Positions 19,650-26,270 of a DNA stretch of 35,270 nucleotides are shown here, in pieces. Below the pieces are notes generated by a model, which was not told the origin of the DNA, did not search any database, and saw only the letters and a list, made by a program, of their open reading frames with translations. Made by a program: the position numbers and the translations under genes. Where the stretch lies: positions 1 to 35,270 of the IMG/VR virus record IMGVR_UViG_3300023180_000186. The stretch is one strand, 5' to 3'. The DNA is from a virus. The stretch's first letter is position 1; each line of letters starts with the position of its first letter.

Positions 19650-19962
19650 TAAATTAAGACAACTAGATCCAACGAAAGTCTGGGAGGTAATTGTGAGAAA
19701 ACCAAAAAGTGTTCGTAGTATGGATCAAAACGAGTATTACTGGGAGATGCTTACTGCTATGGGAGACTACTTTGGATATGAAAAAAATGATATGCATAAA
19801 TTGATGGCATATAAATTTTTATTTGAAATGAAAGAAATCAAAAATGAAAGTGTTGGGTTTATTCGTAGCACTTCAGATTTAAATACTAAAGAGTTTAATG
19901 AGTATTTAGACAATATTAAATTCTGGTCAGGACAATACGGATTTAATTTTGAAGAAAAGTGA
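19603..19962 (+). CDS. NinB-like recombination protein
   Basis: A 119-aa protein. KPKSVRSMDQNEYYWEML (33-50) is the R-S-x-x-Q-N-x-x-x-W pattern of the NinB/lambda Orf recombination family, and GFIRSTSDLNTKEFNEYLDN (about 84-103) is a common following segment in phage homologues. Family members bind single-stranded DNA and act as recombination mediators in place of RecFOR. The ATG at 19603 has GGAGA upstream at good spacing; another ATG at 19618 is possible. It lies next to a Ref-like nuclease, as in other phage nin-type regions. Confidence 0.7.
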   Translation: MLNFKMNKHNLENLISKLRQLDPTKVWEVIVRKPKSVRSMDQNEYYWEMLTAMGDYFGYEKNDMHKLMAYKFLFEMKEIKNESVGFIRSTSDLNTKEFNEYLDNIKFWSGQYGFNFEEK

Positions 19963-20221
19963 AAAAGAATGGATAGAGAAATTGGTGGACTTTGGTTGCG
20001 TAGTCTGTCGTAAGTTTTATGACGATGCAATCACTCCACCATGTATCCATCACATTAGGGAAGGTTTAGGCAAAAGTCAGCGTAATAGTTGGGATAATTG
20101 CTTACCTTTGTGCCACGAACATCATCAAGGTAGCGATGGTTTTCACTCAGGGAAGAAGACGTGGATTGCAAAATATGGCACAGAATATGAACTGCTAGAG
20201 TGGTTAAAAGCGAGGTTGTAA
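19949..20221 (+). CDS. HNH/Ref-type nuclease
   Basis: A 90-aa protein. CVVC (C17, C20), CIHHIREG (H34, H35), CLPLCHEHHQG (C55, H58, H59) and GFH (H66) match the RecA-dependent nuclease Ref and related HNH phage proteins. The YGTEYELLEWL end is typical. The frame starts with TTG at 19949, overlapping NinB by 14 nt; no better in-frame start is visible. Ref of phage P1 cuts DNA at RecA-made D-loops, so a role in recombination or resolving branched replication DNA is likely. Confidence 0.75.
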   Translation: MKKSEKEWIEKLVDFGCVVCRKFYDDAITPPCIHHIREGLGKSQRNSWDNCLPLCHEHHQGSDGFHSGKKTWIAKYGTEYELLEWLKARL

Positions 20222-21449: not shown

Positions 21450-21846
21450 AGAAGATCATTGGTTTACTGATAAACATGGCAATCGAATTAAAAGATTAGA
21501 GTTAGTAAATAAAATTTTAAAATGTATTGGCAATCAAAGAAAATGTTGTAAGCAAATTGCTAATGAAATTGGTTTTGAGTATCAGGTAGTTCGCAATATT
21601 TTAAGACGTTTGCTTACCGCAAATTTATTAGATTCAACACCAACTAAATCATATACGTATTATCATAAGTTAGATAAAACTTGTTTACTGGCAGATTTAT
21701 TTTATAACAAAGATAAAATCTTAAAAAAATTTAAAATTAAAAATGTTAAAAGATATAGCATTGAAGACTTTAAAGGTAAAAAGTTTGATTCTAAAAAAGG
21801 AATAGTTTACAATCAATCTAGTATGACTACTTGGGAGGTAGAATAA
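21439..21846 (+). CDS. Putative winged-helix DNA-binding protein
   Basis: A 135-aa protein, overlapping the previous gene by 11 nt. Residues about 20-70 form a predicted winged helix: RLELVNKILKCIGNQRKCCK, then QIANEIGFEYQVVRNILRRL and LLDSTPTKSYTYYH as the wing. The C-terminal half is very basic (KDKILKKFKIKNVKRYSIED). Such proteins may regulate phage or host genes from within the early block. The HTH call rests on pattern only. Confidence 0.52.
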   Translation: MSHKEDHWFTDKHGNRIKRLELVNKILKCIGNQRKCCKQIANEIGFEYQVVRNILRRLLTANLLDSTPTKSYTYYHKLDKTCLLADLFYNKDKILKKFKIKNVKRYSIEDFKGKKFDSKKGIVYNQSSMTTWEVE

Positions 21847-22451
21847 TGGAACAAAGAACGGACGAATGGTTACAGGCACGAGTTGGTCACATCACAGGAT
21901 CAAGGATGGCAGATGTAATCTCAAAAATTAAAACTGGTGAATCACAAACCAGACTCAATTACAAAACACAGTTGGTTACTGAGCGATTAACTAACCAACC
22001 AGTGCAAACTTATTTTAACAACGTTATGCAACAAGGTATCGATAGAGAACCTGATGCACGTATGTTATATGAACTCGAAAACAAGATAGATGTTGAAGAA
22101 GTTGGTTTTATTAAACATCCTACTCTTGCTTGGAGTGGTGTCAGTGTTGATGGTCTTGTGGGTAAAGACGGCATTATTGAAATTAAGTCGCCACTAGAAA
22201 CTACACACACTAGCACCTTATTAAAGAAACAAGCGCCCAAAAAATACTACCCTCAGATGCAATGGGGAATGTGTGTAACACAGCGTAGTTTTTGTGACTT
22301 TGTTTCGTATAACCCTTCATTTCCAGACGATTTAAAGTTATTTGTTATTCGTGTTGAGAGGGATGATGATTACATCAAAATGCTGGAAGAAGAAGTTGTA
22401 AAGTTCAATGAGGAAATTGAGCAATTATTAAATTCTATTAAGGAGAAATAA
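21846..22451 (+). CDS. YqaJ-type exonuclease
   Basis: A 201-aa protein of the YqaJ/lambda exonuclease (PD-(D/E)XK) family. QRTDEWLQARVGHITGSRMA (3-22) is the conserved beginning. The active-site acids are E68 (REPDAR), D102 (VSVDGLV) and E112/K114 (IIEIKSP), followed by YYPQMQWGM. It digests one strand of linear DNA ends to make 3' tails. The ATG overlaps the upstream stop (TAATG). It is directly followed by an SSB-like gene and is in the same operon as the putative annealing protein. Confidence 0.9.
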   Translation: MEQRTDEWLQARVGHITGSRMADVISKIKTGESQTRLNYKTQLVTERLTNQPVQTYFNNVMQQGIDREPDARMLYELENKIDVEEVGFIKHPTLAWSGVSVDGLVGKDGIIEIKSPLETTHTSTLLKKQAPKKYYPQMQWGMCVTQRSFCDFVSYNPSFPDDLKLFVIRVERDDDYIKMLEEEVVKFNEEIEQLLNSIKEK

Positions 22452-22706
22452 ATGGCAAGATATGAAGACGTAGGTGATTTTACTTTAGGTAAAAATACTT
22501 ATAAACAAGAAGGTGATAGAACTCCAGACTATACTGGAACTATTAAATTAGCAGATGGCACTACGCAACGCATAGGTGCTTGGGTTCAAACTAATAGCAA
22601 AACTGGTGAAAAGTTTTTTAGTGGCAAAGTAACTATTGACACTGAATCAGGTTCTACAGCACCACAAGAGCAAGAGGTAAGTAATGTTGAAGACATACCG
22701 TTCTAG
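22452..22706 (+). CDS. SSB-like single-stranded DNA-binding protein with DIPF tail
   Basis: An 84-aa protein immediately after the YqaJ gene. The body (YTGTIKLADGTTQRIGAWVQ, then GEKFFSGKVTI) looks like a small OB-type beta barrel of the DUF736/phage SSB-like group. The last residues, EVSNVEDIPF, reproduce the acidic D-I-P-F tip by which bacterial SSB recruits replication and repair proteins. Its 84 residues are fewer than normal SSB (about 170), so it is a minimal version. It probably coats phage ssDNA and docks host SSB partners; the tip is seen, its use is inferred. Confidence 0.72.
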   Translation: MARYEDVGDFTLGKNTYKQEGDRTPDYTGTIKLADGTTQRIGAWVQTNSKTGEKFFSGKVTIDTESGSTAPQEQEVSNVEDIPF

Positions 22707-22872
22707 AGTTATTAGATATATTCCTGAAGATAATGTAAGGTATCTTCCAGAAGGTAAGTCAATGTTTTTAACTAAACTTACTAAAAGAAGAGGACTGGTG
22801 AAGGTAGAGTTAGACTTTCATTGGATTAGGAATAATACTGGTATGTATGAAAAATTAATGGGGAGACGATGA
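22684..22872 (+). CDS. 62-aa basic early protein
   Basis: A 62-codon gene starting MLKTYRSRVIRYIPEDNVRY and ending MYEKLMGRR, with many Arg and Lys. AGAGG precedes the ATG at 22684 and the gene overlaps the SSB-like gene by 23 nt. The stop lies inside the following terminator hairpin. No domain recognised. Basic charge fits a nucleic-acid contact. Confidence 0.58.
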   Translation: MLKTYRSRVIRYIPEDNVRYLPEGKSMFLTKLTKRRGLVKVELDFHWIRNNTGMYEKLMGRR

Positions 22873-22885
22873 TCTCCCCTTTTAA
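22860..22885. terminator. Bidirectional rho-independent terminator
   Basis: GGGGAGA-CGATGA-TCTCCCC (22860-22879) followed by TTTTAATT on the plus strand. On the minus strand the same stem follows the PqqA-like stop and is succeeded by ATTAATTTTT. It ends the early operon segment and the opposing pqqA-like gene. Confidence 0.82.
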
Positions 22886-22957
22886 TTATTTGTTCATTAC
22901 ATATAATGTAACTTCAAAACCGAAACGCATTTCAGTTGCTGATGGTGTTGTCCACAT
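22886..22957 (-). CDS. pqqA: PqqA-like PQQ precursor peptide
   Basis: A 23-codon gene on the strand opposite to its neighbours. The peptide is MWTTPSATEMRFGF followed by EVTLYVMNK. Length, MW start, P5, G13 and the E-V-T-x-Y core match bacterial PqqA; E15 and Y19 are the residues that the radical-SAM enzyme PqqE joins to make pyrroloquinoline quinone. AAGGAG 7 nt before the ATG is a strong ribosome site, a palindrome and TATAAT lie upstream and a terminator lies downstream, so it is an independent unit. No pqqB-E, D or F is present, so host enzymes would be needed. Match is by eye but over nearly every diagnostic position. Confidence 0.85.
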   Translation of the reverse strand: MWTTPSATEMRFGFEVTLYVMNK

Positions 22958-22991
22958 AGTGAATCTCCTTTCTTATAGATTTCTATGTAAT

Positions 22992-23015
22992 TATAATTTG
23001 TATTACACGTAATAC
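22992..23015. promoter_or_regulatory. Palindrome and two-way -10 element between pqqA and the next early gene
   Basis: GTATTAC-AC-GTAATAC (23000-23015) is a perfect 7-bp inverted repeat with a 2-bp centre. Beside it, AATTATAATT (22990-22999) reads TATAAT on both strands. The palindrome falls where the -35 of the minus-strand pqqA promoter would be, so it may be an operator or an activator site. A plus-strand promoter for the downstream genes could also lie here. Confidence 0.48.
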
Positions 23016-23035
23016 ACACAACGAGGGATTAGATT

Positions 23036-23260
23036 ATGATACAGAAAATACTTAAAATTATTGTTCCATTTATATTTATTGTGATTTCAATTGGTATTGG
23101 TTTGCAGTATTACATTACTACTAAACTCACTCCAGAAGATTTAATTTGCCATAAAGGAACATTGTTATCACAACTTTCAGATAAAGAACCAATTTACACT
23201 AAAGTAAAAGATATACATTGTGAAATTATTGCTGGTCGACTGGTGTTGAATTATGAATAA
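23036..23260 (+). CDS. Small inner-membrane-anchored protein
   Basis: A 74-aa protein. Residues 7-29 (KIIVPFIFIVISIGIGLQYY region) form one strong membrane helix preceded by Lys residues, so the C-terminal 45 residues would lie outside the cytoplasm. These contain two cysteines (DLICHKG, DIHCEII) that could make a disulphide. GAGG precedes the ATG at a rather long spacing of 9 nt. It is the first plus gene after the PqqA-like unit. Possible roles include superinfection exclusion or envelope change; none is shown. Confidence 0.58.
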   Translation: MIQKILKIIVPFIFIVISIGIGLQYYITTKLTPEDLICHKGTLLSQLSDKEPIYTKVKDIHCEIIAGRLVLNYE

Positions 23261-24704: not shown

Positions 24705-25451
24705 TTACCTTATGCTGACAACGGATTCTGATTTTCTTTTGTTCTTGATCCCCTTGTTGCTTCTTGCCCACGACCCACATGACATACACCTATATTGTTG
24801 AAAAACTTGAGTATTGGTTTTTTTAAAACCACGCTTGTGAATGTGACTGCTACCACAAGTAGGACACACAGTAACTTCGCTATATTCATTATGATTTATA
24901 TATCCTCCCAACCAACCTTCTAATTTTTTATACAACAACTCTAACAACACTGTGTCTTGCTCATTGTATTCCTGCATCAACTCCCTTGCTTTAGGATCTT
25001 TTTTTTCAACATCATTCCATAGATCCATGCCAGAATGTTTTATCTTAGACCCAATACCTAGTTCTTGTGCTACGTTATCTAACTTATTAGATATAAATCT
25101 AAAGTTTCTTTTCATTACTCGAAGTAAATCAACTTGCTTGTATGGACTTGGTGGCGACATACCTAACAATAAGAACTCACGATTAATACTCTTAATATCG
25201 AATGCCATACCATTATAGTGAACACACACGTCACACTCATCTAGCAAGTTCCAGATATGTTTCACCATCCTTCGATGTGATGATGTCCACTCAGAATCAA
25301 AAATTACATTATCATCATCTTTCCACTTAGCAGACCAGCACATCATTTTGCCACGCTTAATTATTTGGTTAAGACTAGCATTAATATCATACAATCCCCA
25401 TGCTGAAATTACTGATGCTTTTGTTTCTATGTCAATAAACAGAATCTTCAA
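24705..25451 (-). CDS. DEDDy 3'-5' exonuclease with zinc-ribbon tail
   Basis: A 248-aa DnaQ-like exonuclease. Exo I is LFIDIET (D7, E9), Exo II VHYNGMAFDIKSINREF (D85) and Exo III YNEQDTVLL (Y162, D166), the DEDDy arrangement. The C-terminus carries a zinc ribbon, CPTC...CMSC (C196, C199, C222, C225). I prefer the TTG at 25451 because GGAG precedes it; another TTG at 25475 is possible. It may degrade DNA or RNA or proofread for a host enzyme. It lies oddly beyond the lysis genes rather than with replication genes. Confidence 0.8.
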   Translation of the reverse strand: MKILFIDIETKASVISAWGLYDINASLNQIIKRGKMMCWSAKWKDDDNVIFDSEWTSSHRRMVKHIWNLLDECDVCVHYNGMAFDIKSINREFLLLGMSPPSPYKQVDLLRVMKRNFRFISNKLDNVAQELGIGSKIKHSGMDLWNDVEKKDPKARELMQEYNEQDTVLLELLYKKLEGWLGGYINHNEYSEVTVCPTCGSSHIHKRGFKKTNTQVFQQYRCMSCGSWARSNKGIKNKRKSESVVSIR

Positions 25452-25878
25452 AAGGTCTTGCTCCGTATCTATCAATGATTAATGCATTGTTACGTGGATT
25501 CTCTTTGACAAATGATATATGAATCCATCTGCCAAACTCTAGTATTACTTGGTCGTAATTAATTTTTGAAGTGTGCTTAACAATTTCTTCGACCACGCTA
25601 CGAGGGTTACCAAAAGATGGCGCAATGAAGTCCACAGCGTTGCCAGTAATGTGCTGGGAAGATCTCTTACTTCCCAAATGATCATTAAGATCACAACTCC
25701 TGTAACCACTGCTAATAAGCATAGGACAGCGTAATAAATCTCTAACATTTTCTAATTCTCCTGCTAAGAATCTAAGATTATCAATAACTTCAACCGTAGG
25801 TGTATTATCGATACCTAAGCGAACTGCTGTATCGGAGTGTGTTAATTCCTCTAAACTAAAGTGTGGCGATAACTTCAT
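25432..25878 (-). CDS. Endolysin, M15 peptidase (L-Ala-D-Glu/D-Ala-D-Ala type)
   Basis: A 148-aa protein with the M15A zinc-peptidase motifs: SSQHITGNAVDF (H76, D83) and GRWIHIS (H120), after an LISSGYRS segment. FSLEELTHSDTAVRLGIDN at the N-terminus is typical of phage M15 endolysins. There is no signal peptide, so it needs the holin next door to reach peptidoglycan. The ATG overlaps the holin stop by 4 nt (ATGA) and its end overlaps the exonuclease gene. Confident call. Confidence 0.9.
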   Translation of the reverse strand: MKLSPHFSLEELTHSDTAVRLGIDNTPTVEVIDNLRFLAGELENVRDLLRCPMLISSGYRSCDLNDHLGSKRSSQHITGNAVDFIAPSFGNPRSVVEEIVKHTSKINYDQVILEFGRWIHISFVKENPRNNALIIDRYGARPFEDSVY

Positions 25879-26270
25879 TTAGTTAATCCCTTGCTTTTCT
25901 CCCAAGAACGCAACCCTGCCATACCTAAAAGGGCAAACGTTAACTCCATTAAAACATCAGTTTGGAATGTGGGCAACACTACATTGTTCCCAGCAAGGAT
26001 TAATATCCACTGCACTAACGGTTGTAATAAAAATATCCAAGCAAAAGATAAACTTGATACCCAACCTAAACATGGTCTCCAACCAGCAACAAAAATAGAT
26101 CGATGTGATGCTTCAGTCTTATTTATATCTATCTGTGCCATGTTTTGAGCGTGTGCTTGCTTTTCTGCCATAGTAGCAATCTCATGTGCCATTTTATTTT
26201 TTTGATCTTTGTCTTCTATAAACTTATCTAAGATAGATGTAACTGGTGCAATTAATGCAGTCCAAACCAT
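25875..26270 (-). CDS. Holin, 3TM superfamily
   Basis: A 131-aa membrane protein. HRSIFVAGWRPCLGWVSSLS (56-75) followed by hydrophobic helices at about 76-94 and 103-120 is the pattern of GTA-type 3TM holins, with the charged helix before it and an RSWEKSKG basic tail. It lies next to the endolysin with an ATGA overlap. Holins assemble in the inner membrane and trigger lysis at a set time. Family call is by motif and context. Confidence 0.85.
   Translation of the reverse strand: MVWTALIAPVTSILDKFIEDKDQKNKMAHEIATMAEKQAHAQNMAQIDINKTEASHRSIFVAGWRPCLGWVSSLSFAWIFLLQPLVQWILILAGNNVVLPTFQTDVLMELTFALLGMAGLRSWEKSKGLTK

Follow-up and report, generated by a model that had tools for sequence, protein, structure and literature searches.

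A short open reading frame on the minus strand of a tailed phage genome encodes PqqA, the precursor peptide of pyrroloquinoline quinone (PQQ). With a probability of about 77%, this phage gene feeds the consumed substrate of PQQ synthesis to the enzymes of a Methylophilaceae host and so sustains methanol oxidation. The gene was found in the window, which here means the whole 35,270-base stretch of viral DNA that was analysed, an IMG/VR virus record, and its features are collected in Table 1. The identity of the gene, its conservation and its recurrence among phages are read directly from nucleotide and protein sequences; from these we infer its expression, its processing by host enzymes and its benefit to the phage.

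The peptide MWTTPSATEMRFGFEVTLYVMNK has every diagnostic residue by which the initial annotation had recognised a 23-codon PqqA-like gene at exactly this position and on this strand: an MW start, P5, G13, and the stretch E15-V-T-L-Y19, in which glutamate and tyrosine have the E-x-x-x-Y spacing of PqqA. E15 and Y19 are the residues from which PQQ is formed. Both PqqA profile models were passed above their curated cut-offs. The match to Pfam PF08042 covers profile positions 1-19 of 19 (E 9e-10, 38.7 bits against a cut-off of 21.1), and that to the NCBIfam equivalog TIGR02107 covers positions 1-21 of 21 (36.6 bits against a cut-off of 20). The assignment of the reading frame to PqqA is confirmed at the level of sequence. 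The PF08042 match is the sole one in a PqqA search of the whole record, and the earlier statement that the window holds no other pqq gene stands on that search together with the window's list of open reading frames. Among solved structures, no match to the peptide was found. A paper that names PqqA as a RiPP expressed together with defence systems concerns a Pseudomonadaceae family (PMC11118758).

Table 1. The pqqA cassette and neighbouring genes in the window
Feature	Position	Strand	Remarks
pqqA, PQQ precursor peptide, 23 aa, MWTTPSATEMRFGFEVTLYVMNK	22886..22957	-	PF08042, TIGR02107
Shine-Dalgarno AAGGAG	22965..22970	-	7 nt from pqqA ATG
-10 hexamer TATAAT	22990..22995	-	perfect; 38 nt before pqqA ATG
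Operator-like palindrome TGTATTAC-AC-GTAATACA (TGTATTACACGTAATACA)	22999..23016		perfect 8+8 inverted repeat
Predicted terminator hairpin GGGGAGATCATCGTCTCCCC, then ATTAATTTTT, 3' of pqqA	22860..22879	-	RNA folding
YqaJ-type exonuclease, early recombination module, syntenic anchor	21831..22451	+	top relatives ctXG6705, Venkman
Single-strand DNA-binding protein-like (SSB-like)	22452..22706	+	phrog_7364, E 4.7e-8
Small membrane-like protein, divergent from pqqA	23036..23260	+	no confident family

The YqaJ exonuclease gene is followed by the SSB-like gene and then by pqqA, alone on the opposite strand, so that pqqA faces the early operon as had been proposed. The AAGGAG site and the terminator claimed for the gene were also found. 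A Shine-Dalgarno-like motif stands before each of 122 viral pqqA genes. As to the claim of promoter-like sequence, a simple two-hexamer (-35/-10) scan of the window did not call a pqqA promoter and gave nothing above chance, but the perfect TATAAT is retained in all 11 aligned relatives of the window lineage. This hexamer lies upstream of viral pqqA in 41/115 cases (16 expected), compared with 1/125 for host pqqA (9.6 expected). Directly upstream of the -10 element is the palindrome TGTATTACACGTAATACA, present in a single exact copy within the window. Variants of the palindrome, sometimes downstream of the -10 element, occur upstream of pqqA in 11/120 viral and 0/127 host sequences, and the palindrome resembles the operator of a phage regulator. 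On the other side of the gene, the hairpin has a folding energy of -14.8 kcal/mol (z -4.9), and its stems carry changes on both sides in aligned relatives with pairing retained; a hairpin lies within 60 nt of viral pqqA in 70 of 121 cases (58%), as against 10.5% in shuffles. The hairpin can act in both directions, being predicted to end pqqA and, on the plus strand, the converging early operon. Since TATAAT, the Shine-Dalgarno motif and the hairpin are present and are kept in relatives, the phage pqqA appears to be an independent expression cassette.

The window belongs to a genuine tailed phage in which terminase (TerL), portal, major head protein and replication genes, including a DnaB-like helicase, are recognised, and the same host-like metabolic gene occurs in cultured phage isolates. 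The best relatives are ctXG6705 and the OM43 phage Venkman for TerL (68.3% and 68.0%), for the portal protein (66.5% and 63.2%) and for YqaJ (56.9% and 52.2%); the next TerL relatives are pelagiphages of the HTVC010P type, at about 47%. Because all three proteins point to ctXG6705 and Venkman, the window phage very probably infects a methylotroph of the Methylophilaceae, OM43/LD28 type, a host assigned from its relatives. A SAR11 or SAR116 host, which the initial annotation had favoured, was rejected: the nearest phages infect OM43/LD28 methylotrophs, all of them PQQ makers, and no PqqA was detectable in the pelagiphage records, including those with a related terminase. The window also contains, at 25432-26270 and 19949-20221, lysis genes (an M15 peptidase and a GTA-type three-helix holin) and a Ref-kind RecA-dependent nuclease.

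Among the likely hosts, PqqA is present in 100 of 100 Methylophilaceae genomes, in 1-12 copies each, and PqqE scores above the cut-off in 99 of them. Methylophilaceae are reported to have 3-12 copies of pqqA but mostly single sets of pqqBCDE (PMC4109929), and one of several Methylovorus pqqA copies dominates, according to a title cited in PMC9851590. Marine OM43-type genomes have two tandem pqqA genes about 200 bases apart that encode different peptides (L234 2472-2743, L309 5826-6097, L317 2314-2583). A complete pqqABCDE operon is not what the viruses carry, since PqqE above the cut-off was found in none of 50 other pqqA-bearing viral contigs. This does not exclude their peptides from PqqA, because hosts too have stand-alone pqqA (PMC4109929, PMC9851590). 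As hosts multiply pqqA alone and the phages are without PqqE, the phages seem to mirror a host habit of raising the substrate and not the enzyme. In one pqqA-bearing virus contig (L144, G177, 47246-47494), a 385-aa frame is weakly like PqqE at 27.7 bits, far below the cut-off, and is possibly another radical-SAM enzyme.

The initial annotation had regarded a lone precursor gene on a phage as unusual, a view that the wider search overturned. A tblastn search of 50,697 phage records found PqqA in P19250A, Venkman, MEP301, MEP401, MEP402, four Melnitz isolates and ctXG6705, in each case as a lone, unannotated peptide 68-91% identical to that of the window. A lone pqqA is therefore carried by nine of nine cultured OM43/LD28 methylotroph phages of the searched collection, which are otherwise diverse; "all cultured methylophages" refers to that collection, and MEP431-434 and HIM624-A (taxonomy entries) are not among its members. 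Seven phage records tested whole each have exactly one PqqA. None of these phage records has a pqqA label in its annotation; in the Melnitz and ctXG6705 records an opposite-strand reading frame is annotated in its place. In the passages searched, the papers that describe Venkman, Melnitz, MEP301 and MEP401/402 say nothing of PqqA; the growth medium as published includes PQQ. Queries with Acinetobacter and Methylobacterium PqqA added no further phages from the 50,697 records. The sole other matches there were host-derived contigs filed as "Acinetobacter phage MD-2021a" (L008, CAKLQF020000010.1); these were rejected as a case of phage PQQ genes, being host chromosome with ppk and pqqBCDE adjoining, and would mislead searches for such genes. 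In IMG/VR, a degenerate pattern found pqqA in at least 120 contigs. Among the matches listed, 113 contigs have at least one reading frame in common with six reference phages, and 89 have at least three reading frames matching them.

The position of the gene varies among these phages. An antisense site behind the recombination genes, with YqaJ adjoining, is common to the window, Venkman, ctXG6705 and MEP301. In P19250A, MEP401 and Melnitz, pqqA has different places and orientations: in P19250A it follows the recombinase operon in the same direction (antisense in the window), in MEP401 it heads the structural operon, and in Melnitz it adjoins a tRNA gene. The simplest reading of this pattern is repeated gain or movement of pqqA among phages; at 72 bases the gene is too short for a gene tree. 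Among 17 relatives picked by terminase without reference to PqqA, on contigs of 30 kb or more, pqqA is present in 10 (MEP301-like 5/7, MEP401-like 2/6, Venkman-like 3/4). One Venkman-like contig (G240, TerL 93%) has the flanking genes separated by a gap of 47 bases, compared with 212 bases in Venkman, and so presents an empty site. pqqA occurs in only 3 of 50 contigs from the wider neighbourhood of the window's TerL, many of which are fragments or of unknown host. Because it is absent from 7 of the 17 related contigs and one site is empty, pqqA is best regarded as a dispensable, optional cassette, and in this it agrees with the accessory nature of phage auxiliary metabolic genes.

Such patchiness would also be expected of a short host gene captured by chance and carried without selection, and the many stand-alone host copies of pqqA would be open to such capture. 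This passive-cargo explanation is nevertheless very improbable. A set of 22 distinct phage genes, taken from isolates and from contigs found by their terminase (one sequence having two ambiguous codons), gives a pN/pS of about 0.19, its synonymous sites being almost saturated, and the phage pqqA is under purifying selection; promoter, Shine-Dalgarno motif and terminator are kept, and the diverse phages that carry the gene have it at different sites in their genomes. Contigs found by the pattern were left out of the conservation counts because their use would have been circular. Between the window gene and its nearest relative (L137), six codons differ, four of them silently. Twelve residues are invariant in the 22 genes: W2, P5, A7, E9, M10, R11, G13, F14, E15, V16, T17 and Y19. 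The conservation of E15 and Y19, whose lack was to count against the proposal, is thus complete in this set.

The same invariance bears on the suggestion that the phage peptide is a decoy or inhibitor that occupies host PqqD and PqqE and lowers PQQ, thereby slowing the host or redirecting carbon. Saturation of PqqD by a substrate that comes alone is conceivable, and PqqE is not carried. A decoy, however, would gain nothing from the reactive Glu15 and Tyr19, yet these and the core residues are invariant; the phage peptides match host PqqA exactly or almost exactly, and one pqqA-bearing phage itself carries a PQQ enzyme. The decoy proposal, disfavoured because of this invariance, seems unlikely to be correct. 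There is likewise little to recommend modification of the peptide to a product other than PQQ, or a second role as a signal or a different RiPP. Stand-alone RiPP precursors can serve several enzymes, and at least one Methylophilaceae genome has divergent extra pqqDE genes (PMC4109929), but the genes next to pqqA include no recognisable modifying enzyme, and the peptide has the sequence of a common host PqqA, with a score that exceeds the equivalog cut-off.

The PQQ enzyme in question is encoded by the 72,356-base contig IMGVR_UViG_3300025120_009955 (G166), in which pqqA is at 41887 (loci L640 13989-18783 and L641 1887-2789). G166 encodes a PQQ methanol/ethanol-type dehydrogenase, XoxF-like, at 33989-35863 (608 bits). 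The alpha subunit of formate dehydrogenase (885 bits) lies at 35943-38783, and a SoxYZ-like carrier of the quinoprotein-associated kind at 42070. One phage contig therefore combines several steps of methanol oxidation; it also encodes DnaK, GroEL and the two subunits of ribonucleotide reductase. Together with the Lake Baikal phage VP_266, which likewise has both genes (PMC7678222), G166 lends some weight to the idea that phage pqqA supplies PQQ to a phage-encoded quinoprotein, or that it serves a long pseudolysogenic state and not the lytic energy supply. We consider this a slight possibility for the gene in general, as the methanol dehydrogenase model was matched in G166 and in no other of the 50 pqqA-bearing contigs (1/50).

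The reading to which we return is that phage PqqA feeds the PqqD and PqqE of the host. This part of the initial annotation was upheld as the best explanation, with PqqE in 99/100 likely hosts and 0/50 virus contigs. PqqD presents PqqA and PqqE joins its glutamate to its tyrosine (Barr et al. 2016, as cited in PMC7678222 and PMC9851590), and supplied PqqA is reported to yield PQQ at 70-80% in cell-free extract (Wang et al. 2021, as cited in PMC9851590). During infection, the phage would make extra PqqA, which host PqqD would present and in which host PqqE would cross-link Glu15 to Tyr19; the remaining host enzymes would complete PQQ. The host enzymes would thus continue PQQ synthesis while host gene expression falls. 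The PQQ would load the host methanol dehydrogenase (XoxF/MxaF), and energy and carbon from methanol would keep flowing to virus production. In OM43, which relies on XoxF, no transcript is more abundant than that of this enzyme (PMC5120137). pqqA alone would suffice because each PQQ costs one peptide, whereas the enzymes can be used again. A broader proposal, that methylotroph phages repeatedly and independently take up this precursor-only gene with its own promoter and operator, and that PqqA becomes limiting after host shutdown, has odds somewhat better than even. If true, auxiliary genes would include a general "substrate-only" class, whose small size lets its members escape standard gene callers and explains their absence from the annotation of published genomes.

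Phage-encoded PqqA as such is not new, because it was reported in 2020 from Lake Baikal, where PqqA of the T4-like Methylophilaceae phage VP_266 was proposed as an auxiliary metabolic gene together with methanol dehydrogenase (Coutinho et al. 2020, PMC7678222). G166 resembles VP_266 in this pairing, whereas the pqqA of the window is unaccompanied, a conserved cassette in a small phage related to Venkman. Four features were not found in the open-access literature and appear to be new: the lone form of the gene, its presence in cultured methylophages, its cassette structure and its recurrence. They suggest that methylotroph phages steer methanol oxidation by means of the smallest possible metabolic gene, overlooked in all annotations checked. 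The cassette may also serve as a sequence marker for methylotroph phages in metagenomes, and its natural presence and absence, with cultured phage-host pairs such as Venkman on OM43 strain H5P1 and MEP401 on FZCC0133, offer a test case for a consumed substrate, not an enzyme, as useful cargo.

The PqqA of Methylophilaceae hosts is like that of the window in length, core residues, Glu15 and Tyr19, and the nearest host pqqA found differs from the phage gene at 5 of 72 bases. In contrast to host PqqA, the window copy is on a phage, without pqqBCDE, and has Leu18 in place of the usual Met; it also has a consensus -10 element, which host copies are without, and an operator-like palindrome. With psbA, whose product is a protein subunit of high turnover, cyanophages maintain an energy reaction of their host. 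Like psbA, pqqA would replace a quickly consumed part of such a reaction, a likeness of analogy only and not of family. The two products differ in kind, that of pqqA being a peptide spent as substrate in a biosynthesis.
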